Positions 20,359 through 51,470 of a stretch of DNA of 64,000 nt are shown here, piece after piece. Where the stretch lies: the NCBI GenBank assembly GCA_040388625.1, contig JAZKBK010000001.1, positions 310,001-374,000 on the forward strand, written 5' to 3'. Every line of letters starts with the position of its first letter. Positions within the stretch are counted from its first letter, which is position 1. The notes under the pieces were generated by a model that was given only the letters and a program-made list of their open reading frames with translations, made no database searches and was not told the origin of the DNA. A program made the translations under genes and the position numbers. The DNA comes from Gemmatimonadota bacterium. GTDB taxonomy: Bacteria > Gemmatimonadota > Gemmatimonadetes > Gemmatimonadales > Gemmatimonadaceae.

Positions 20359-23300
20359 TCAGCTTCCCATCATGAACATCCTGATCCCAACTTTTTCCTT
20401 CGCCTTGAACAGCGTTGCCGGTAGCCATGGCAAAAGTTTGAGCTGGATCGGACTGAGAATCTTTGGCAACGTACGCTGAACATCGAGGCGCGATATTTCC
20501 CAGCCTTCGTCGACAGCGGTTTCCTGTTTCTTCAACGCTTCGGCGGGGTCGTAGTCATCCCCCAGGCCAGCAAGATATTCGCTGAGCGCTGTCCACACGC
20601 TGTCGATGCGCTGTCTGTAGGCCGTATCGGCTTTCTGAAGCGATTCGGCCTGGTCGCGGCTAAGCAGTAGCGAGTCCGACTCTTCGAGGATCGACGAGTA
20701 TGGATCCGGCACGTTGCGCGCGTAGCGCCGCTTCAGTTCCGTTACGGAAAGCCGGGGCCCCTTCCGGCCGTTGCGTCCCGGTTTGAGCCAGCGGTTGAGC
20801 ATCTGCTGCGGCAGCGGACGGCCCAGACCGAGCGAAACGTCGATGGACACACGGAATGGTACACGCAGCAGTGTGTTGCTCGGCCGCGTATTTCCGAATC
20901 GCGGATTGACAGTATAGCTGAATCGATCGTTGCCGGGATCGAACGCTGTGGGTCTGTAGAGAACGGGATCCGGAAATGCGGGAGTCCCCCATCCGCGCAG
21001 GTGGTTCGCGCCATGCAGCAGCTGATCGAGGCCGCCGAGCGGATTGGACAGTGCGAGTGAGATACTGCCGTACTGCTTCGTGATCGGCATCTTGCCACTA
21101 TACGACAGCTGTGCGTTGAGCGAAGTGGTCCATGGTCCCGCGCAGCTGTTCCTGCCCGCGGCGTGATCCATCTGTGTCGTCAGACAGTCGCGAACACTTC
21201 GCGACGAATTGGAGAGCAGCGTGCGCGTTGCACTCGCCAGCGAAGCATCCGCGCTCGTCGCGGGGTTGAAGATGAACGCGCGATCGTTGGCGAGCCCATC
21301 ACCGTTCACGTCGCCGCCGACCATCGGGGTGAAGGGAAGGCCGGATTGCAGGCGGCCAAAGAATGTGAGCGCCACCCTCCTGAAGGTGTAGCCGCCCTGT
21401 AGCAGGATCTGGTGGCGCACATCCAGATCGCCGCGCGCCCACTCGCGCGTGACGGGACTCCCGAATGTCGCGCCATCGAAGCCACTCTCCCGCGCGCGTG
21501 TATCGGCGAGAGTGTAATTGACGCCTAGAAACCAGTTGGAGATTCCATCCAGCTCAGGTGACAATGACACTGTGACCTGTTTGCTCCGTGACGTCAGCGT
21601 GGATACGTTATCGATGACGTGACCAAACAGCGGCGATACACGCGCCTGCACGGACGATAGCGCTCCTGACGTCGGGACGATGCTGTTGGGATCCACGAAT
21701 ACAGGCCGTCCTTCATCGGCAAGTGTGAATCTCGGTACGTTGGCGAAGTTGACGTCGGTGCGTCCGGGTTGATTCAGATTGAGCGAGTACAGACCTTCGA
21801 TCGAGTACGTGAGCAGCCTGTAGCTCGACGAATACGCCAGGTTGCCGCGCCAGCTTCGAGGCGCCGTATATCCCGGATCGAACAGCTGCACCGATGGCGC
21901 AGCGTCGGTGAACACGGGCGTTGCTCCGCCGAGGCATTGTGTGGGTATGGATGCCGGATCGGTGAGGTATTGCCCCCAGTTCGGGATCGGAGTTGCGGCT
22001 CCGACGCAGGTGAGCGATTGCAAGCCGCTCGGCAGGCCGGTTGCGATCGAGGCGTTGGTCAGGAGGTTCGCCGGAAGAATATTCCGGAATTCGCCGATTC
22101 CACCGCGCACGTAGCTGACAGGTCCAGTGCGGAATTGACCGATCTGGTTGAATCTGATTCCATCGCCTTCCGGCTTTCGGATCCACGTAAATCCGATGCG
22201 CGGACTGATGTGAACCGTGTTTGGCGCATGATCTGTACGCAGCCCGAATGTGGACTCCACGGCAGGATTGAACTCCGGTGCCGACAGGTAGTGATTGGCC
22301 TCGAAACGCGCACCGTACATCACCTGAAAGGTCGAAGACTTGCGCCAGAGATCGCCGAGCGCGACGTATCCGTTCCAGACAGAGCCGTGGAGCGTTGGCG
22401 CATTAAGTGAGCGTGTAAAACTCGACGGTTGATCGCTGGCAAGGTCGCCGAGCGAGTTGAAGGCAAAAGATCCAAAGGAATTGGAATTCGTTTCCTGGCG
22501 GATCCCGTCGACGCGAGAATCTGCGTCCAGCTTGACGCGATGTGCGTCGCGTCCGTGCGCATAGAATTGGGTCATGCTCGTTGTTTCCCACGTCCACTGG
22601 CGCGTGTCGCTGAGTCGGGCGCTGTTTCCACCGAATGCCAGCGACGTCAGGCCACCGGTACCATCCGGAAACGAGGAGGCCACGAGCACACTCCCATTCG
22701 GAAGGGTGAGATATGGAGTCGACCGGTTTCTCGAGAAGGTGAATCCACTGCGCTCCTCGTTCAAGTAGTCCCCATGCAGATATGTCGAGAACAGTGCCTG
22801 CAGCATTCCGATACCCTGCGATGTCGAGGCGCCGTGGGCAGCAATAGCGGTGGGGCTGATCGCCGCAGCGTTGTCACTTGACAGTTTTCCGTACGCCAAA
22901 AGCCCCCAGGTTGTTCGCGCTGGCTGGAAGCTGCTCCAGTTGTAGGGCGCGTGATCGACTCGCGCTATGAATGACGCGTTCTGCATGACGTGCGACGATG
23001 GCACAGCGCCGGTACGCAGCGGAATCCCGGCAGAGGAGAGCAGATTGAACAGTCGATCCGCGGAGTCAGGCGATACGCCGGCGTGTTGCAGCAGGTCCGT
23101 CGCTGCGTTGGAGAGAGATACAGCGTCCGATGTGCGACGCCCTGCCTGCAAGCCGTAGTTGTACACAAACTTATCTTCGTCCAGTGCGCCGTCGCCCCCA
23201 AAGCTTGCAATGACATTGCTGAAACGCTGTCCCATCCGTGCCGACACGGGATCGGTATATTGCAGCGCAGGCGCGTCCAGCGTGACGTGCGCTCGTCGGC

Positions 23301-24054
23301 TCGCGAAAAGATTGCCGCGGGACAACTCGACGTCCTCATTGAGCCCCCCGAACCAGCCGCGCGACGGATCGTAGGTAGAGCTGGATACGCGCACAGTGGT
23401 TCGCGCATCGCGCGGTACATCGGCGCCGGCGAACGCCATTCCGTTGATCGTCGTCGAGTTCTGTCCACCGATGCCCCCAACCGAGAGGCCGCCCGGTGTG
23501 GACGCAATTCCCGGAATCGTGGCACCGATCGCTGCAAGATCGCCAGCCTCGTCTGGTGACACTGCACCGTTCACGCCGCCTGCGATCTGCTCCGACGCGC
23601 CGGTCTCGACTCCGAATAATGGCTCGCGCGAGGGGATCTGTTTCTCCTGTGCCTTGATTTTCACCGCCGCAAGCTGTTGAACTCCGGTCCGCGTGAGCGC
23701 GGCGTCCACAGTGAACATCGAGTCCGAACCAACGCGTGTTACGCGCTTGCGATACGTACTGTACCCGACGGCGGAGATGTGTACCAGATAGTCGCCAGAG
23801 CCATTCGCAAACTCCATCGAGTAGCGGCCGGCGCTGTCGGTCGTCGTCGCTCGCGAGAGACGATCCGGAGCCATCGTGATGATGACGTCCGCTGCGGGGA
23901 GCACCTTACCACTGTCGGTCGTAACGGTGCCTCGAATTGTGTCGTGATGCGTCTGGGCGGTGCAGGGGACAGCCCAGAGAATTGAAATCAGAAGTCCGAA
24001 TATCGCACTGCCAAAAAAAGAGGCTCGCCGAGCGCGCAGTTGATGATCGATCAT
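20359..24054 (-). CDS. TonB-dependent receptor with regulatory-like N-domain
   Basis: This is a 1231-residue outer-membrane transporter. A signal peptide (about 1-34) is followed by a carboxypeptidase-regulatory-like beta domain (about 40-125), then a plug region (STTINGMAFAGADVPRDART) and a large barrel. The architecture is Oar-like or SusC-like. Unusually, the protein does not end in the barrel: after about residue 1110 comes a charged helical tail that contains a segment resembling Spy/CpxP repeats, ending in RMFMMGS. The start overlaps the M56-TonB gene by 4 nt (ATGA), so receptor and sensor are translated together. The substrate is unknown. Confidence 0.9.
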   Translation of the reverse strand: MIDHQLRARRASFFGSAIFGLLISILWAVPCTAQTHHDTIRGTVTTDSGKVLPAADVIITMAPDRLSRATTTDSAGRYSMEFANGSGDYLVHISAVGYSTYRKRVTRVGSDSMFTVDAALTRTGVQQLAAVKIKAQEKQIPSREPLFGVETGASEQIAGGVNGAVSPDEAGDLAAIGATIPGIASTPGGLSVGGIGGQNSTTINGMAFAGADVPRDARTTVRVSSSTYDPSRGWFGGLNEDVELSRGNLFASRRAHVTLDAPALQYTDPVSARMGQRFSNVIASFGGDGALDEDKFVYNYGLQAGRRTSDAVSLSNAATDLLQHAGVSPDSADRLFNLLSSAGIPLRTGAVPSSHVMQNASFIARVDHAPYNWSSFQPARTTWGLLAYGKLSSDNAAAISPTAIAAHGASTSQGIGMLQALFSTYLHGDYLNEERSGFTFSRNRSTPYLTLPNGSVLVASSFPDGTGGLTSLAFGGNSARLSDTRQWTWETTSMTQFYAHGRDAHRVKLDADSRVDGIRQETNSNSFGSFAFNSLGDLASDQPSSFTRSLNAPTLHGSVWNGYVALGDLWRKSSTFQVMYGARFEANHYLSAPEFNPAVESTFGLRTDHAPNTVHISPRIGFTWIRKPEGDGIRFNQIGQFRTGPVSYVRGGIGEFRNILPANLLTNASIATGLPSGLQSLTCVGAATPIPNWGQYLTDPASIPTQCLGGATPVFTDAAPSVQLFDPGYTAPRSWRGNLAYSSSYRLLTYSIEGLYSLNLNQPGRTDVNFANVPRFTLADEGRPVFVDPNSIVPTSGALSSVQARVSPLFGHVIDNVSTLTSRSKQVTVSLSPELDGISNWFLGVNYTLADTRARESGFDGATFGSPVTREWARGDLDVRHQILLQGGYTFRRVALTFFGRLQSGLPFTPMVGGDVNGDGLANDRAFIFNPATSADASLASATRTLLSNSSRSVRDCLTTQMDHAAGRNSCAGPWTTSLNAQLSYSGKMPITKQYGSISLALSNPLGGLDQLLHGANHLRGWGTPAFPDPVLYRPTAFDPGNDRFSYTVNPRFGNTRPSNTLLRVPFRVSIDVSLGLGRPLPQQMLNRWLKPGRNGRKGPRLSVTELKRRYARNVPDPYSSILEESDSLLLSRDQAESLQKADTAYRQRIDSVWTALSEYLAGLGDDYDPAEALKKQETAVDEGWEISRLDVQRTLPKILSPIQLKLLPWLPATLFKAKEKVGIRMFMMGS

Positions 24055-25628
24055 TGCGGATCTTTGGCGATCGCGAACGTGAACGGCTGCTGTACCAATT
24101 GCCTGATGTGCTTACCGCGGATTTCAGCCGGTACGAAGGTCATTTTGGGAAGTGCGGTGCGGACCGCCTGCTCCAGGAGCGGATCTGTCGCGTTGGTGAT
24201 CGTGATGCCAGCTGCCCGATCCACGCGGCCCGTGGTATCAACGGTGAACTCCGCATCGACCTCACCGCCGATTCCCGCGCGGCGTAAACTATCGGGATAT
24301 ACCGGCGTTACCGTCGTGGACAGCATTCTCGCAGGCTTGTCGACCTGGAAGCTGAAATACGTCATGGTGTGACTCGCGGTGCCCGTGGGGCGCCATTCCA
24401 AAGCGCGAAGCGTGCGCGTGTTCTTCCGTGCTGCATTGAGTATTGCCTCCACGGAATCGCGCTCGTTCGTCGCGCGCTGCAGTGCGCGCATCTGCGTTGC
24501 CATCATCCGCTCGCGTGTGCGCAGGCTGTCGTTCTGCCGCCGCAGTATGGCGAGACTGTCGATCCGCCGCTTTGATCCGGTGTCGGGTCGAACGGGCCAC
24601 GCTGGCGCAATCCGCAATGGTGGCGCGGCACGTGACATAATCCTTGGCACTGGCGTCGTGAATGCCGCCGCAACGGCTATGAGCGCAACTACACCGCCGG
24701 TGACCACGCTCTGCATTCCGATGCGCCGCACAGCAGTCATCGCGCGCAACCGCAACTCCAGCTCCGATGGCAGCCTCAGCAGCGCAACCATCGGAACGGC
24801 GAGCGGACCGCTGTTCCGCCCGCGTGCGGCTACCTCCAGCAGTACGTGACCGTAATCCTTCGCACTCGGATATCGAGTCAGCACCCGCATATCGCAATCG
24901 AGTTCGATCGCGCGCCGAAGCCTGGCTGCACACCACCACAACCCGATGTTCCACGGCATCAGGACCAACGCGATTACCGCGAGCATCAATCGCTCGGGAT
25001 CACGCGCCGTAATGTGTTCCGACTCGTGCGCGAGAACCAGCCTTCGATGTTCCGGCAGCATCGTTGTCGCCCACGATGGCAACACGATCCGATGTGATAG
25101 AAAGCCGACCACCGCGGGTCCGGTCATCGCAGACACGTCCACACTCACGCCATCCACAACCGTCCTTTCCCACGATCGCTGCGCTCTGCGCCAGTGGAAC
25201 ACGCCGACCACAAGCCACGCGATCAGCGATACCGACAACACGATCCAGACAACCAGCGCCGTTGCGGCGAAGTCGCGTGCGATGCGCGCCAGCGCGGTGC
25301 GTAGCGCACGGCGCGAAGGTGCTATCAATCGAATGAGAGCGTCCCGTGCGATGTAACTGTAGCCGCGCCGCGCTGCAGAGCGCCCGGAGCTTATGATGAT
25401 TCTCGCCAACACAGGGGGCCCGTCACCTGCAGCCGCTCCGATTGCGGTGCGGGCGTCGAGTGAGTGCACCGTGAGCACCCCGCTCGGCGCCACCACCGCA
25501 AGCACGATCGCTGCCGTCCAGAAATGCCGCGCAGCGCCGCGTCCCCGTGTCCCCCATTCCATCGCTGCCGCACCACCAGCGAGCAACAGCGTGAACAGGA
25601 CCATGTATCCGAATACGGTGGGAGTCAT
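24051..25628 (-). CDS. M56 (BlaR1-type) metalloprotease fused to TonB C-terminal domain
   Basis: This 525-residue membrane protein combines two functions. The N-terminal part has membrane helices (about 5-23, 37-56, 122-145 and 212-230) and an HESEH zinc site (201-205) like BlaR1/MecR1, which cut their repressor when they sense a signal. A basic and coiled linker (about 340-415) leads to a TonB C-terminal domain (about 425-525, ending QLVQQPFTFAI) in place of a penicillin-binding sensor. It overlaps BlaI upstream and the receptor downstream by 4 nt each. A sensor that contacts TonB-dependent receptors is the natural reading but is inferred. Confidence 0.88.
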   Translation of the reverse strand: MTPTVFGYMVLFTLLLAGGAAAMEWGTRGRGAARHFWTAAIVLAVVAPSGVLTVHSLDARTAIGAAAGDGPPVLARIIISSGRSAARRGYSYIARDALIRLIAPSRRALRTALARIARDFAATALVVWIVLSVSLIAWLVVGVFHWRRAQRSWERTVVDGVSVDVSAMTGPAVVGFLSHRIVLPSWATTMLPEHRRLVLAHESEHITARDPERLMLAVIALVLMPWNIGLWWCAARLRRAIELDCDMRVLTRYPSAKDYGHVLLEVAARGRNSGPLAVPMVALLRLPSELELRLRAMTAVRRIGMQSVVTGGVVALIAVAAAFTTPVPRIMSRAAPPLRIAPAWPVRPDTGSKRRIDSLAILRRQNDSLRTRERMMATQMRALQRATNERDSVEAILNAARKNTRTLRALEWRPTGTASHTMTYFSFQVDKPARMLSTTVTPVYPDSLRRAGIGGEVDAEFTVDTTGRVDRAAGITITNATDPLLEQAVRTALPKMTFVPAEIRGKHIRQLVQQPFTFAIAKDPQ

Positions 25629-25996
25629 TTCGAGTCCTCCGCCAGCCGCTCGTCAAGCAGCGCGCGCAACCGCCGAAGCGTTGCGTCGTCGAGCCCGCGA
25701 TCGGATACGAGCTGCGTGAGTAGTCTTTCCGGAGACCCGCGGAAGAATTGCCCCAGCACTCTGTCTATCGCGCTCGAGCTTGCGTCATCCCGGTCGATCA
25801 GCGCGGCATAACGATGTGCGCGCCCCTCGACTTCTCGCGCGACGTGCCCCTTTTCCTCCAGCACGCGCAAGAGTGTAAGGATCGTCGTATACGCGGATCC
25901 GTCGCCCAGTGCGTCCCGCACCTCAGCGACCGTACTTGGTCCGCGCTCCCAGAGCACGGTCATGAGCTCGATCTCCCGTGGGGTCAGCCGCTGCAT
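25625..25996 (-). CDS. BlaI/MecI-family transcriptional repressor
   Basis: This 123-residue winged-helix repressor of the BlaI/MecI/CopY family has the LTPREIELMTVLWERGPSTV N-terminus and the YTTILTLLRVLEEKGHVARE recognition-helix region. The C-terminal half is a dimerisation helix set. BlaI proteins are inactivated by proteolysis started by an M56 partner, and the partner overlaps this gene by 4 nt. An AGGAGG ribosome site lies 8 nt before the ATG. Two overlapping MecI-like operators and a sigma-70-type promoter sit just upstream, so autoregulation is predicted. Confidence 0.94.
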   Translation of the reverse strand: MQRLTPREIELMTVLWERGPSTVAEVRDALGDGSAYTTILTLLRVLEEKGHVAREVEGRAHRYAALIDRDDASSSAIDRVLGQFFRGSPERLLTQLVSDRGLDDATLRRLRALLDERLAEDSK

Positions 25997-26009: not shown

Positions 26010-26039
26010 TACTAAGAGTCTAGTACTATCGCCATAGTA
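26010..26039. promoter_or_regulatory. Two overlapping BlaI/MecI operators
   Basis: Two dyads of form TACTA-N6-TAGTA lie at 26010-26025 (TACTAAGAGTCTAGTA) and 26024-26039 (core GTACTATCGCCATAGTAC, a perfect 7-bp repeat). The staphylococcal mec operator TACTACATATGTAGTA has the same outer half-sites and spacing. They share two bases and lie 14 bp before the BlaI start codon. Confidence 0.8.
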
Positions 26040-26062
26040 CCATTATCAAGTCATGGCGTCAA
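26034..26062 (-). promoter_or_regulatory. Sigma-70-like promoter of blaI operon
   Basis: On the minus strand TTGACG (26057-26062) and TACTAT (26034-26039) are separated by exactly 17 bp. The -10 hexamer lies inside the upstream operator arm, so bound repressor would block polymerase. Confidence 0.7.
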
Positions 26063-26122: not shown

Positions 26123-26827
26123 TCATCGCAGCGTAAATACGAACGATTGTTCGACAAGCTGTCGGACACGTACTCCGTTGAACTCGGCCGCCCGGAATCG
26201 TGCCCGCAAGAGCGCTGTCTCGACCGCCGAGGAGAACAGTGGATTCGCCGATCCGACGACGACGAACGAACCTGGCTCCGCACGCCCAGCGCTGTCCACG
26301 ACGAACCTGGCAACTACTGTCCCCTCCACGCCCTGCGCGCGTAGCGCCTCAGGGAAGTGCGGCGCAAGCGTCCCCGGCAACGCCGCCGCCTGGCGATCGA
26401 CCTGTTCCGACGACAGAACCGTAGCCGAAGTGGAGCCCGAGCCATCGATGCTGTTTCGTCCAGTCACGCCGCCACCGAAGTCACTGCCGTGGATAACAGG
26501 TGTGGCCACACTGCCGGGATCGAACCTGAACGCGGGGCCCGCGAACCGCGGGAGAACGGGAATGCCGGTCATTGCCGGAAACTCGAACCGATTGCGAGCC
26601 GCGGATGGCGCGCTGCGTGCCACAGCGTGGTCCATCGGTCGTATCGGTGCCTTGGGCACCGCAAGCGGAACCGGAACAACATGTGGCCTATCGGGAGCTC
26701 GCAGCGCGGCATGGGCCGTCGCGTTGATCGCGGCGAGAATGAGCACGCTATGAAGTGCGATGCTTGGGATCGCGCCGCCGACCGACCTGTGCTTGCGTGT
26801 TCCGGATTCCAGTAGATGCGTCACCAC
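26123..26827 (-). CDS. TonB-family energy transducer
   Basis: This 234-residue protein has one N-terminal membrane helix (about 20-40), a Pro/Ala-rich linker and a TonB C-terminal domain (about 150-234: FPEALRAQGVEGTVVARFVVDSAGRAEPGSF). It would couple proton-motive force from an ExbB/ExbD complex to outer-membrane receptors. It lies upstream of the BlaI-M56-receptor genes on the same strand, but the 126-bp gap contains the BlaI promoter, so it may be a separate unit. A divergent phosphatase-like gene lies 174 bp away. Confidence 0.85.
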   Translation of the reverse strand: MVTHLLESGTRKHRSVGGAIPSIALHSVLILAAINATAHAALRAPDRPHVVPVPLAVPKAPIRPMDHAVARSAPSAARNRFEFPAMTGIPVLPRFAGPAFRFDPGSVATPVIHGSDFGGGVTGRNSIDGSGSTSATVLSSEQVDRQAAALPGTLAPHFPEALRAQGVEGTVVARFVVDSAGRAEPGSFVVVGSANPLFSSAVETALLRARFRAAEFNGVRVRQLVEQSFVFTLR

Positions 26828-35537: not shown

Positions 35538-35609
35538 TCTCCCGGCCATTCCGGCTTAATTGTGCGCCAGTATTCTTCTCTCAGTCATTCTGAGGAGCTT
35601 GCTGCCGCA

Positions 35610-36323
35610 ATGTTCAACCAGCTAATCGAGTCGAAGCGCGCCAAGAAGCGCAGCCCGGGGACCACTGCGTTCAGCATTGGGCTGCACGCGGGACTCATCG
35701 GGCTCGCGGTCTGGGCGACGGCCAACGCCGCCATCAAGAACGAGAAGCCGAAGGCGGAGAAGATCGAATTCGTCCAGGTGAAGAAGGACGAGCCGCCTCC
35801 GCCAAAGAAGGAGGCACCGCCGCCGCCAAAGGCTACTGTTGCGCCGCCGCCGCCCAAGGGTTTCCAGGTGCCACAGGCGCCGCCGATCGTTCCGGTCAAG
35901 ATCCCAGACATCGATCTCTCCAAGAAAGTCACGAACGTCGCTGACTTCAGCGGAAAGGGTGTCGAAGGCGGTGTCGCGAATGGTGTCGTAGGTGGAAAGG
36001 GACCGGTCTCGAACACCGAGACGTACTTCTCGTTTCAGGTAGAGAAGCCCGCCGCGATGGCGTCGGGAACCGTGACACCACAATACCCCGAGACGCTTCG
36101 CAGCGCGGGCATCGAGGGAGAAGTCGACGCGGAGTTCACCGTGGACACCACGGGCCGCGTGGATCAGGCCGCGGGGATCAAGATCAACAAGGCTACAAAT
36201 GATCTGTTCGCCGCCGCCGTCAAGTCGGCCCTGCCGCGCATGAAGTTCTATCCTGCGGAGATCGGTGGGCACAAGGTCAGACAGCTCGTGCAGCAACCGT
36301 TCACGTTCACGATCACTCATTAA
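35610..36323 (+). CDS. tonB: TonB energy transducer
   Basis: This 237-residue TonB protein has one membrane helix (about 19-40), a Pro/Lys-rich periplasm-spanning linker (about 60-95) and a TonB C-terminal domain (about 150-237). The C-terminal domain is strikingly similar to that of the M56-TonB fusion at 24051, sharing long blocks such as EVDAEFTVDTTGRVD and RQLVQQPFTF. ATG 35610 is taken as start because it begins the typical short cytoplasmic tail; a GTG at 35562 lies upstream. It is the first gene of a Ton cluster with exbB and two exbD genes. Confidence 0.93.
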   Translation: MFNQLIESKRAKKRSPGTTAFSIGLHAGLIGLAVWATANAAIKNEKPKAEKIEFVQVKKDEPPPPKKEAPPPPKATVAPPPPKGFQVPQAPPIVPVKIPDIDLSKKVTNVADFSGKGVEGGVANGVVGGKGPVSNTETYFSFQVEKPAAMASGTVTPQYPETLRSAGIEGEVDAEFTVDTTGRVDQAAGIKINKATNDLFAAAVKSALPRMKFYPAEIGGHKVRQLVQQPFTFTITH

Positions 36324-36353: not shown

Positions 36354-37094
36354 ATGCATCTATCGCTGATTGACCTTTGGGGCCAGATGGCCGGTTTCGC
36401 CCGCGGCATCGTTTACACGCTCGCGATCATGTCGATCTGGACCCTGTCGATTTCGATAAAGAAGTGGTGGGATCTCAAGTCGGCCCAGAACGAGACACGC
36501 AAGTTCGCGCCCGAGTTCTCGCAGTTCCTCGAAGAAGACAATCTCGTTGAGGCCGCAAACCTCTCCGAGCGCTACAAGAAGTCGCACGTTGCACGCGTTC
36601 TGGCCGGTGCGCTCTCCGAGACCCGCGCACTCGTACAGGATGGTTCCGTAACGATCGCCGACATCAACTCCGCAGAGCGCGCAATCGAGCGCGAAATGCT
36701 GATGACGATCACCGATCTCAAGCGCGGCCTGGGCGTACTCGCGACAAGCGGTGCAACTGCTCCGTTCGTCGGACTGCTCGGAACGACCATGGGTATCATC
36801 AACGCCTTCACGGGCATGGCAGTTTCCGGTTCAGGCGGTCTGTCCGCGATTTCCGGCGGTATTTCCGAGGCACTCATCACGACCGCTCTCGGTCTGCTCG
36901 TCGCAATTCCGGCAGTGTGGCTCTTCAACTACTTCCAGACCAAGGTCGACAATCTCACGGCCGAGATGACCTACACGTCCAAGGAAATGATCGACTATCT
37001 GATCAAGAACGTTTCGGGCGAGTTCGGTCGCAGCCGCTTCACGCGCGAGTTCAATACGACGGCCACGGCCGGCAACGCGCCAATTTCCAAGTAA
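36354..37094 (+). CDS. exbB: ExbB/TolQ-family proton channel
   Basis: This 246-residue membrane protein forms the proton channel that powers TonB. Three hydrophobic segments are visible (about 17-38, 135-160 and 175-200). The family-typical GLLGTTMGIINAFTGMA and EALITTALGLLVAIPAVWLFNYF stretches are present. A GGAG ribosome site precedes the ATG. The 150-bp gap to exbD contains two strong hairpins, which may lower exbD expression compared with exbB. Confidence 0.95.
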   Translation: MHLSLIDLWGQMAGFARGIVYTLAIMSIWTLSISIKKWWDLKSAQNETRKFAPEFSQFLEEDNLVEAANLSERYKKSHVARVLAGALSETRALVQDGSVTIADINSAERAIEREMLMTITDLKRGLGVLATSGATAPFVGLLGTTMGIINAFTGMAVSGSGGLSAISGGISEALITTALGLLVAIPAVWLFNYFQTKVDNLTAEMTYTSKEMIDYLIKNVSGEFGRSRFTREFNTTATAGNAPISK

Positions 37095-37116
37095 CGTTTC
37101 ATTCCAAACGACGTAG

Positions 37117-37214
37117 GGCGCGGATATCCGCGCCTGTGATTGAAGGGTGGCGGATTCATCCGTACCCGCAGATGGAAGGGCCGGCGCCCCGTCCGGCAGT
37201 AGACGACGGGGCGC
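37117..37214 (+). promoter_or_regulatory. Two hairpins between exbB and exbD
   Basis: A perfect 18-bp palindrome GGCGCGGATATCCGCGCC lies at 37117-37134. A 10-bp stem pairs GCGCCCCGTC (37184-37193) with GACGGGGCGC (37205-37214). Neither has a T-run. They could act as partial terminators or RNA-stability elements that set the ExbB:ExbD ratio. Confidence 0.55.
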
Positions 37215-37244
37215 GGTTCCACACTTTTCGAGGGATTCGTATTT

Positions 37245-37733
37245 ATGGCAATGTCAACATCGGGCGGGAACGCGGTTCGCGCGGATCCAAATGTGACTCC
37301 GATGATCGACGTCATGCTCGTTTTGCTGATCATCTTCATGGTCATCATTCCGACGCTGGTGTCGGGCGTCAACGCGCAGCCGCCAGCTGGCCAGAACCTC
37401 AAGCCGCACCCGCAACAGGATCAGGACCAGCTTCTTGGTATCGACAATCAGGGCCAGTACTATCTCAATCGCAGTGCGATCCCGAACGCATCACTCAGTA
37501 CCGCGCTCACCGATATCTACAGCAAGCGCACCGAGGACAAGATTCTCTACGTCAAGGCTGACAAGAATCTCGACTACGGCAAGATCCTCGATGCGCTCGA
37601 TATTGCGGCAAAGAGTGGCGTTCGCATGACGGCCATGGTCACGGACCAGCAGGCTGGCACGCATTCGTTGATTCCGAGTGATAACATCGAGGCGACAAGC
37701 GCTGGCACGCCGAGCAGTGGAGGGCCAAAGTAA
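37245..37733 (+). CDS. exbD: ExbD/TolR-family protein (first copy)
   Basis: This 162-residue protein has one membrane helix (about 21-42) that contains the conserved proton-carrying Asp in NVTPMIDVMLVLLIIFMV. The periplasmic domain (about 65-150) ends in a Ser/Gly-rich tail. A GAGGGA ribosome site is present. It overlaps the second exbD as TAATG. Two ExbD types in one operon suggest a mixed or alternative channel complex. Confidence 0.94.
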   Translation: MAMSTSGGNAVRADPNVTPMIDVMLVLLIIFMVIIPTLVSGVNAQPPAGQNLKPHPQQDQDQLLGIDNQGQYYLNRSAIPNASLSTALTDIYSKRTEDKILYVKADKNLDYGKILDALDIAAKSGVRMTAMVTDQQAGTHSLIPSDNIEATSAGTPSSGGPK

Positions 37734-38152
37734 TGGCGATGTCAACAGGTGGTGGTCGCGGCGGCTTTACGTCCGAGCCGAATCTGACCCCGATGATCGA
37801 CGTGTTGCTGGTGCTTCTCATCATCTTCATGGTGATCGTGCCAACGGCGCGGAAGGCGATCGACGTCCAGCTTCCAGATCCGACTGTCCAGCCGACGAGT
37901 TCGCCCAGCACAGATCAGATCGTGCTGGAAGTGGCCAAGGACGGCACGTATCTGATCAACAAGCAGCCGGTCCCTGGCGGTGCGAACGGCCTCAGCCAGA
38001 TGATTCACAACACGTTCGACAAGCGGCCCGAGAAGATCATGTTCGTCAAGGGTGATCCGGCCGCCAAGTATCAGCAGATCATCCAGGCGATGGACATCGC
38101 TCGTGGCTCTGGTGTTCTCGTCATTGGCATAACGCCAAAGTCGACGCAGTAA
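37733..38152 (+). CDS. exbD: ExbD/TolR-family protein (second copy)
   Basis: This 139-residue paralogue of the preceding gene has the same LTPMIDVLLVLLIIFMV helix (Asp near residue 22) and a periplasmic domain with the EKIMFVKGDPAAKYQQIIQAMDIA block. The MAMSTGG N-terminus is shared with the first copy, showing a recent tandem duplication followed by divergence. It is translationally coupled to the first copy and followed after 9 nt by the TonB-like gene. Confidence 0.94.
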   Translation: MAMSTGGGRGGFTSEPNLTPMIDVLLVLLIIFMVIVPTARKAIDVQLPDPTVQPTSSPSTDQIVLEVAKDGTYLINKQPVPGGANGLSQMIHNTFDKRPEKIMFVKGDPAAKYQQIIQAMDIARGSGVLVIGITPKSTQ

Positions 38153-49610: not shown

Positions 49611-49790
49611 GGCTCGCTCCTTTGGTGTAGCTGAAATATAAACGGAAAATACGACTTTCCAGCGCCCCGTTACACCCACGGTGGATGGCCGGTTCCGGGG
49701 ACGGACCAATTATTTACAGCCGCGGTAATGGCAGGAAGGCTCGCCCTTTGCGATTATATCCTCACCCCACAACCTTCGGAATCCCACGTG

Positions 49791-51089
49791 ATGCCGCGAC
49801 CACTCGTCCGACCGCTGTTCGTGCTTCTGCTCTTCACCGCGGGATGCTCAGTCGTGTACCACAAGCTGGACGATCCAACGGGCCTCCCCGAAGCGAACGT
49901 GCGGCCCGGCATATCGGTGTTGCTGAGTGACAGTATCGCCCTCGTCGCGGGCAAACGGGTCGGATTGCTGACGAACGCCAGCGGGGTAGATGAGCACGGC
50001 AGAAGCGACGTCAAGCTGCTCATGACGGATAAGCGCGCCACGAGATCCAACGTCCATCTCGTCGAGCTGTTTTCGCCCGAGCACGGGTTCGCGACTACTC
50101 TGGACAGGACCGGCATCGCGTCCGGAATCGATCCGGCGACCGGGCTGGTTGTCATCTCCCTGTACACCAACCAGACCATCCCGCCCCCCGATACGACTCT
50201 TCGCGCGATCGACGTTTTCGTCGTCGACCTCCCGGATGTCGGCTCGCGCACCTGGACATACGATGGCGCCGTGGTTTACGCGATGCGCGCAGCTGCGCGG
50301 GCGCACAAGCCGATCGTGGTACTGGACCGTCCCAACCCGATCACCGGATCGCTCGTCGAAGGGCCCATGCTCGACTCGGCACTCTCGAATGCAGATGACC
50401 CTGCGCCGGGCAAGCCCGGACTCGCATGGGCGCTATATCCGATTCCGCTCCGGCACGGTATGACGATGGGCGAGCTTGCGCGGTTTTACAACGCCGAGCT
50501 CAAGATCGGAGCTGACTTGCACGTTGTGCCCGCAGCACGGTGGAGCCGCGAAGTCTGGTTCGACCGAACCGGGCTTCCGTTCGTCGCTCCTTCGCCAAGC
50601 TTGCAGTCGTTTCCCGCCATCATGCTCTACCCGGGTCTGGTCCCGTTCGAGGCGACCAATCTGTCAGTGGGCCGCGGAACCAACGAGGCGTTCCGGCGGA
50701 TCGGAGCGCCGTGGATGGATCCCAAGCGTGTGATCGAACTGCTCAAGGACCGCCCGATTCGCGGCGTGCGATTCTCTGCCGTCGACTTTACTCCGGTTTC
50801 TCCGGGCGACAACAAGTATCCCGGCCAGCTGGTCCACGGGATAAGGATCGAGGTGACGGAGCGCAGCCAGCTGCAGACGAGCCGGCTGGCCGCCGGACTG
50901 CTCGCAGCGATCCACCAGGCCTATCCGACCGATTTCACGATCGATTCGACGCGGTTCGATCGACTGTTCGGATCCCCGTCCGCGAGACGGGCGATCCTGA
51001 GCGGGGCCGACCCCGACGCTGTCATCGATTCGACCTACGGCCCGGCGTATGCGTTTCGTCAGCGTGTATCGAAATATCTCATCTACTAA
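49791..51089 (+). CDS. namZ: NamZ/DUF1343 lipoprotein, exo-N-acetylmuramidase-like
   Basis: This 432-residue lipoprotein of the DUF1343 family has members that release N-acetylmuramic acid from the non-reducing end of muropeptides (NamZ, glycosidase family 171). A lipoprotein signal ends in TAGC at Cys18-19. The family blocks VGLLTNASGVDEHGR, LFSPEHGFATTLDRTG, DLPDVGSRTWTYDGAV, LDRPNPITGSLVEGP and PFEATNLSVGRGTNEAF are all present. ATG 49791 is chosen because it starts this signal; an upstream ATG at 49728 is not needed. The divergent kinase and symporter could take up the product. Confidence 0.92.
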   Translation: MPRPLVRPLFVLLLFTAGCSVVYHKLDDPTGLPEANVRPGISVLLSDSIALVAGKRVGLLTNASGVDEHGRSDVKLLMTDKRATRSNVHLVELFSPEHGFATTLDRTGIASGIDPATGLVVISLYTNQTIPPPDTTLRAIDVFVVDLPDVGSRTWTYDGAVVYAMRAAARAHKPIVVLDRPNPITGSLVEGPMLDSALSNADDPAPGKPGLAWALYPIPLRHGMTMGELARFYNAELKIGADLHVVPAARWSREVWFDRTGLPFVAPSPSLQSFPAIMLYPGLVPFEATNLSVGRGTNEAFRRIGAPWMDPKRVIELLKDRPIRGVRFSAVDFTPVSPGDNKYPGQLVHGIRIEVTERSQLQTSRLAAGLLAAIHQAYPTDFTIDSTRFDRLFGSPSARRAILSGADPDAVIDSTYGPAYAFRQRVSKYLIY

Positions 51090-51100
51090 GAGCATAGTAG
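51083..51100. promoter_or_regulatory. Third BlaI/MecI-like operator
   Basis: The sequence CTACTAAGAGCATAGTAG has perfect 6-bp arms and the TACTA-N6-TAGTA form. It matches the operator at 26010-26025 in 14 of 16 positions. It overlaps the namZ stop (51087-51089) and lies 38 bp before the small lipoprotein ATG. Confidence 0.6.
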
Positions 51101-51137: not shown

Positions 51138-51470
51138 ATGAAGAAACTGATAGTCATGCTGGGCCTCGCGGTGGCCGCGACGGCCTGCGGCCCGAGACAG
51201 GTCGAGGTCAAGACGGGACCGCAGCCGGTGAGCGAGGTAACGCTCAAGGTGACCAACAACCTCTCTCAGGCGGCCAACATCTACGTGGTCAGCAGCGGCA
51301 GCGACATCTTTCTCAAGCAGGTCGGGGCGAACAGCACGGAGACCATGAATGTGCCGGGTATCTCCGCTGGCGCCACGGTAGGATTGAAGGCGACACCGAT
51401 CGACGGCTCCCGCTCCTACACGCGCGACAACGTAACGCTGTCGGGATTGTACCAATGGCAGATACCGTAG
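51138..51470 (+). CDS. Small lipoprotein, unknown
   Basis: This 110-residue protein has a lipoprotein signal (MKKLIVMLGLAVAATAC, Cys17). The rest is a beta-rich domain (about 35-110, SEVTLKVTNNLSQAANIYVV) that looks like a small Ig-like or FixH-like fold. I do not recognise the family. A BlaI-type operator sits just before it, suggesting control by the repressor at 25625. It follows namZ but may have its own promoter. Localisation to the outer or inner membrane is inferred from the lipobox. Confidence 0.75.
   Translation: MKKLIVMLGLAVAATACGPRQVEVKTGPQPVSEVTLKVTNNLSQAANIYVVSSGSDIFLKQVGANSTETMNVPGISAGATVGLKATPIDGSRSYTRDNVTLSGLYQWQIP

Follow-up and report, generated by a model that had tools for sequence, protein, structure and literature searches.

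A BlaI repressor and an M56 membrane protease appear to regulate a receptor of the TonB-dependent type in a member of the Gemmatimonadota. With moderate confidence, we propose that the protease ends in a mimic of TonB, and that engagement of TonB boxes by this tail would switch the protease on BlaI. The proposal builds on domain identities, an intact catalytic set, predicted operators and a small regulon, the ancestry of the tail in resident TonB proteins, and its selective constraint, each established from sequence, phylogeny, or structure models.

Gene order at the blaI locus

The stretch of DNA analyzed (the window) is 64,000 nt long and comprises bases 310001–374000 of contig C1 of a 3.84-Mb genome (G000); feature positions below are those of the window. 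The source organism is a soil bacterium of the Gemmatimonadota. Genomes G001, G002, and G003 represent sister species of the same genus.

Three genes lie head to tail on the minus strand, with a 4-nt overlap at each junction. They encode a BlaI/MecI/CopY-family repressor of 123 aa (25625–25996; Pfam Penicillinase_R, 1.6e-28), a 525-aa fusion of an M56 protease, a coiled-coil linker, and a TonB_C domain (24051–25628; Pfam M56 and TonB_C, with an AlphaFold model matching BlaR1 and the TonB C-terminal domain [CTD]), and a 1231-aa outer-membrane protein of the TonB-dependent-receptor type (20359–24054). The order is kept in two sister species, with the 4-nt overlap in G002 and an 11-nt gap before the receptor gene in G001. 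Between G000 and G002, dN/dS of BlaI is 0.024. A plasmid search returned a single weak match.

Two other TonB proteins are encoded in the window, both with the S-x3-H motif. One, of 234 aa, lies upstream of blaI (26123–26827, minus strand; Pfam TonB_C, 9e-10) and carries the motif in its transmembrane (TM) helix. The other is a canonical TonB (35562–36323, plus strand), the closest relative of the M56 tail within the G000 genome, and is adjoined on the same strand (36354–38152) by exbB (36354–37094) and two exbD genes (37245–37733 and 37733–38152), these three named by sequence reading. An earlier note on this DNA had described BlaI, an M56 protease with HESEH, a C-terminal TonB domain, a receptor, and the 4-nt overlaps, and open reading frames, Pfam, and structure models confirm these, the receptor as a protein of the TonB-dependent-receptor type. 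Its interval (24051–25996) takes in BlaI and the M56 protein, and the second TonB (26123–26827), the tonB-exbB-exbD genes (35.5–38.2 kb), and the operators went unmentioned.

The M56 protease and its tail

The M56 domain (residues 121–294; 24747–25268, minus strand; Pfam Peptidase_M56, 1e-18) contains HESEH at residues 201–205 and E242xxxD246. The membrane domain carries the gluzincin residues HExxH and ExxxD of BlaR1/MecR1 sensor-proteases and, as is also typical of those proteins, its gene directly adjoins that of a BlaI-family repressor. HESEH, E242, D246, D210, Y259, and R293 are invariant among the 12 relatives compared; the BlaR1 residues are H201ExxH, E242xxxD, D210, Y261, and R294 (PMC9834060). 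Judged by its residues, the protease is catalytically complete, with the full BlaR1 set present. The BlaR1/MecR1–BlaI/MecI systems of Staphylococcus aureus (PMC9834060) are alike in the overlap of the BlaI-family gene with the M56 gene, in the conserved H201ExxH, E242xxxD, D210, Tyr, and Arg, and in fold (8exq/8exp). They differ in the sensor, which is a class-D-like penicillin-binding domain in BlaR1/MecR1 and a putative one, a TonB CTD on a long linker, here, and in the regulated gene, here probably that of an outer-membrane receptor. A Pfam scan and a structure search of the M56 protein gave no transpeptidase or beta-lactamase match at the C terminus, where a penicillin-binding sensor would be; TonB_C is found there instead.

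The TonB CTD spans residues 442–519 (24072–24305, minus strand) and is identified by Pfam (TonB_C, 1.7e-9) as well as by structure. The AlphaFold model of the fusion has a mean pLDDT of 70, and of 80–91 in the TonB_C part. Its best match is the TonB CTD bound to FoxA, which fits the TonB_C region (6i97_D; TM 0.85, 1.9 Å), followed by S. aureus BlaR1 (8exq/8exp), which fits the remainder. A linker of ∼100 residues connects the last TM helix to the tail, and residues 353–411 are predicted to form one helix.

The tail resembles the TonB-ExbB-ExbD transducer in the fold of its CTD and in its close kinship with resident TonB. However, such a transducer has a single N-terminal TM helix with the S-x3-H motif for ExbB, whereas the fusion has a multihelix protease N terminus, and S-x3-H is missing, by reading of the sequence, from its several TM-like helices. 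For this reason, the tail is probably not energized by ExbBD.

Ancestry and constraint of the tail

Residues 416–524 share 68% identity with the canonical, ExbBD-linked TonB 10 kb away; identity of the tail with the second TonB, adjoining blaI, is 40%. A tree of 60 TonB_C domains does not separate fused from free domains, and the tails of this genus nest within the genus's own TonBs (support 100/97, and 97/97 in a second analysis). In a smaller tree with nine fused tails, a constraint that made these one group lowered the log-likelihood by 95 units (AU p = 0.0002). Groupings of the genus tails with the tails from G017, G019, or G027 were also rejected (p = 3e-5 to 3e-4), although only 96 columns were available. 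The trees thus reject one common ancestry for such tails and point to repeated capture of a resident TonB domain. Within the genus, independent capture (G001 vs. G000/G002) is favored by the tree, yet one capture is still possible (AU p = 0.217), so we claim recapture between genera only.

In the comparison of G000 with G002, the tail has the lowest dN/dS of the three regions of the protein (0.136), followed by the protease part (0.196) and the linker (0.60). The tail is a true TonB CTD, kin to resident TonB and held by purifying selection. TonB normally grips outer-membrane receptors of this type, and descent from a resident TonB suggests TonB boxes as the target of the tail.

The receptor

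In a Pfam scan the receptor scored CarboxypepD_reg alone, with no Plug and no TonB-dependent-receptor barrel family. Its model matches TonB-dependent transporters (YddB, FusA, SusC, and FecA) and comprises CarboxypepD_reg, a plug region, a barrel, and a C-terminal helical domain; the plug/TonB-box region is modeled with low pLDDT. There are four receptor paralogs in the G000 genome. One of them scores OMP_b-brl_4, and another (C5:336937) reaches 25.8 bits for Plug in the genome scan, above the cut-off, and 20.7 bits when scanned as a single protein, just short of the cut-off. A TonB-box-like segment, LAAVKIKA (residues 128–135; 23650–23673, minus strand), lies just past CarboxypepD_reg and shares its place and pattern with L..VVVT(A/G) of other receptors in G000.

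In cell-surface signaling of the FecA-FecR-sigma type, too, a receptor in the outer membrane is coupled to expression of the gene that encodes it, as would be the case here. The present system differs in that the blaI locus has a repressor and a protease rather than an anti-sigma and a sigma factor, and in that Pfam finds no N-terminal STN domain in the receptor. Three FecR genes do occur in the G000 genome, beside other receptors and all on other contigs, so the BlaI/M56 module is no replacement for FecR in this organism. The description of the protease as a “one-protein alternative” to FecR/anti-sigma signaling was therefore inexact, also because BlaI is needed.

Predicted operators and the probable BlaI regulon

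A sigma-70-like promoter precedes blaI (26034–26062, minus strand), with −35 TTGACG (26057–26062) and −10 TACTAT (26034–26039) separated by 17 bp. Candidate BlaI operator 1, TACTATCGCCATAGTA (26024–26039), lies over the −10 element, and candidate operator 2, TACTAAGAGTCTAGTA (26010–26025), overlaps it by 2 bp; both are kept in G002 and G003. The repressor thus has the features expected of its family, namely, a Penicillinase_R domain and a dyad, its predicted operator, over its own promoter. A third exact candidate operator, TACTAAGAGCATAGTA (51084–51099), is flanked by a NamZ muramidase gene and, 38 bp downstream, the gene of a 110-aa putative lipoprotein (51138–51470, plus strand) that matches no Pfam family and is a probable member of the BlaI regulon.

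These are the only exact matches to the predicted operator, TACTA-N6-TAGTA, in the 3.84-Mb genome: the tandem pair at the blaI promoter and the lipoprotein site. Allowing up to one mismatch, 0.03 sites were expected in the window and three were found, all exact. Three one-mismatch sites exist in the genome. Other receptors and tonB-exbBD had been expected as BlaI targets and were rejected, as the exact and one-mismatch sites in G000 lie elsewhere.

G002 and G003 both have an ortholog of the lipoprotein gene. All three operators are retained in G002, the third with an altered spacer and unchanged arms, and the lipoprotein ortholog of G003 likewise follows a site with intact arms and a changed spacer. 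Every TACTAN6TAGTA site in G002 and G003 precedes blaI, the receptor gene, or the lipoprotein gene. In G001, for which tblastn gave no lipoprotein ortholog and no lipoprotein site was found, the blaI site is the only one. The motif also precedes other Gemmatimonadota blaI genes: the 19 exact sites counted across 11 other genera include 10 at BlaI-M56 loci and one more at a BlaI gene.

In the G003 genome the probable receptor ortholog stands apart from the operon. This gene, the one most like the receptor (61%–62%), sits on a contig that lacks blaI-M56, and a separate tandem pair of TACTAN6TAGTA sites occupies the corresponding place in its promoter. The promoter layout of G000 blaI is repeated at both G003 blaI and this gene. 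Among other nonoperonic receptor paralogs in four species, none of the 12 checked has a site within one mismatch. The G003 gene is basal, in the receptor tree, to a clade of the operon receptors plus one other paralog set, and for that reason we regard it as the probable, not certain, ortholog. Because the relocated gene has its own tandem operators, the receptor would be a BlaI target independently of operon membership, and we conclude from these predicted sites that it belongs to the BlaI regulon. The claim that BlaI controls receptor synthesis thus gains support from both the predicted operator promoter of the operon and the pair at the relocated gene.

The protease of G003 is more awkward. 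An M56 gene in the syntenic place, with a redoxin gene directly after it, ends in a plug-like strand and lacks TonB_C. An ABC-permease reading stands in place of its first ∼84 residues, the contig looks chimeric, and the genome is poorly assembled; the contig bearing blaI stops inside that gene, at codon 32. If the syntenic M56 protein is the partner of G003 BlaI, then the receptor can be under BlaI without a TonB tail.

Proposed mechanism

In the mechanism we propose, BlaI would sit on the tandem TACTAN6TAGTA sites over the −10 element and repress blaI, the protease gene, the receptor gene, and the small lipoprotein gene. The M56 protein would cross the inner membrane with its zinc site in the cytoplasm, as in BlaR1, and its periplasmic part would be the ∼100-residue linker, mainly one long helix, ending in the TonB-type domain taken from a resident TonB. 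As a nonenergized mimic of TonB, the tail would engage the TonB boxes of loaded or abundant receptors, most simply those of the coregulated one. The conformational change from this contact would turn the protease on BlaI. We infer the binding of BlaI to the dyads and its cleavage by the M56 protease, and likewise TonB-box binding by the tail, a signal that consists of receptor occupancy, and the direction of the response (induction or feedback). Either the presence of substrate could raise receptor production, or the system could report a shortage of receptor. The model of the earlier note, in which the TonB domain reads receptor occupancy and the protease then removes BlaI, is only partly supported: repressor, operators, protease, and tail are in place, and tail binding and switching are supplied by inference.

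Distribution in Gemmatimonadota and alternative explanations

M56-TonB_C fusions beside BlaI are common in the Gemmatimonadota. We surveyed 24 distinct M56-TonB_C proteins at loci with at least 3 kb of downstream sequence, using profiles derived from G000 for detection of receptors. A receptor lies directly downstream in 3/3 cases in the genus and in 0/21 elsewhere, and none of 71 M56 proteins without TonB_C has a receptor directly downstream. A receptor after M56-TonB_C had been expected as a general rule; this was dropped, given 0/21 outside the genus. By gene order, receptor coupling is a specialty of this genus.

The absence of a nearby receptor from most M56-TonB_C relatives favors a different reading, in which the tail reports on the whole Ton system, either competing with canonical TonB for the TonB boxes of any receptor or sensing TonB/ExbD availability, and the downstream receptor is one of few outputs. 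The close kinship of the tail with a general TonB fits this, as does the lipoprotein, a BlaI target that is not a receptor. However, a compact operon contains the same single receptor gene in three species, and predicted BlaI operators are restricted to that receptor among its paralogs; both observations speak against this reading, and we consider it less probable.

Other M56 tails in the phylum include Plug domains, tandem TonB_C domains, and HEAT-like repeats (the last recognized by eye). Given this variety, BlaI/M56 pairs in the phylum appear to be combined with interchangeable modules on the periplasmic side. TonB_C, like Plug in other M56 proteins, might then be a generic protein–protein or dimerization module, with another true signal (e.g., envelope stress or cell-wall fragments). 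Besides the diversity of tails, several short linkers are in keeping with this: outside the genus, linkers range from 17 to 133 residues, many <60, so that some fusions may be too short to reach a TonB box through the periplasm. The position of the third operator, between the NamZ muramidase gene and the lipoprotein gene, also fits. Yet repeated recapture of a lineage's own TonB domain is hard to explain unless partner specificity counts, and the tail is under strong constraint, which makes a generic module unlikely. An ordinary BlaR1/BlaI beta-lactam resistance locus with incidental neighbors, suggested by the BlaI and M56 families, is rejected as highly improbable because the Pfam scan finds no penicillin-binding sensor domain, the operon has no beta-lactamase, and the operators are confined to the operon and the lipoprotein gene.

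Discussion

Fusions of M56 with TonB were known before. A 2007 survey of the TonB family by Chu, Peacock, and Vogel reportedly included MecR1-TonB fusions, with an M56/MecR1-like N terminus and a TonB C-terminal domain; it is said to have noted tandem C-terminal domains too, and to have been a work of sequence classification. Our literature search on BlaR1, MecR1, or M56 with TonB found no functional study. What appears to be new, on comparative sequence grounds, is the operator and its regulon, control of a receptor, which the relocated gene indicates, and the repeated capture of a resident TonB domain. The locus gives M56-TonB fusions a defined predicted operator, a small regulon that includes a receptor, and a tail of resident-TonB ancestry.

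The fullest reading, which we advance more tentatively than the regulatory proposal for this locus, is that a passive TonB mimic on a membrane protease reads the TonB-box exposure of one receptor and inactivates the BlaI that controls it, without sigma or anti-sigma factors, and that sensors of this kind are renewed in the phylum by repeated copying of each lineage's TonB domain. If true, bacteria would have a second way to let the state of an outer-membrane receptor influence transcription, here in a genome where FecR genes are also present beside other receptors. It would also help to account for the many bacterial BlaI/M56 pairs that have no evident connection with beta-lactams.

Receptor C terminus and operator neighbours

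In the receptor family to which the window gene at 20359-24054 belongs, the barrel is followed by a helical domain of ~100-150 aa (window 20359-20790, the 3' end of the gene) with two conserved LSxxQ/LSPxQ-like motifs. This domain is under strong constraint (dN/dS 0.046 between the source genome and sister species G002), and its helices could be likened to those of CpxP/Spy-type periplasmic proteins.

Just upstream of the putatively BlaI-controlled lipoprotein gene lies a gene for a NamZ-type exo-beta-N-acetylmuramidase (window 49728-51089), the 3' end of which is overlapped by the putative operator. In another genus (G017), the gene at L314:2945-4012 (contig C30), which encodes a secreted protein containing two CarboxypepD_reg domains, has a TACTAN6TAGTA site at its start and a further dyad nearby.

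M56 tails

The M56 protein of the second BlaI-M56 pair in the source genome (L003:1309-2826, contig C2) carries the Plug domain of TonB receptors (PF07715, 29.5 bits) at its C terminus, and that of the third (L001:1354-3528, contig C1 at 412 kb) has HEAT-like repeats as its C-terminal part. In sister species G003, an M56 gene without its first two TM helices is fused to a truncated ABC permease (L271:1-700, contig C239); given this join, the contig is probably a metagenomic chimera. M56-TonB_C genes also occur as a tandem pair (L118:7686-10939), and TonB_C is doubled within a single M56 protein at loci L010/L069, L024/L072, L122, and L158. Plug tails are common to many Gemmatimonadota M56 proteins, and thus both halves of the TonB-receptor handshake are found as M56 sensor modules.
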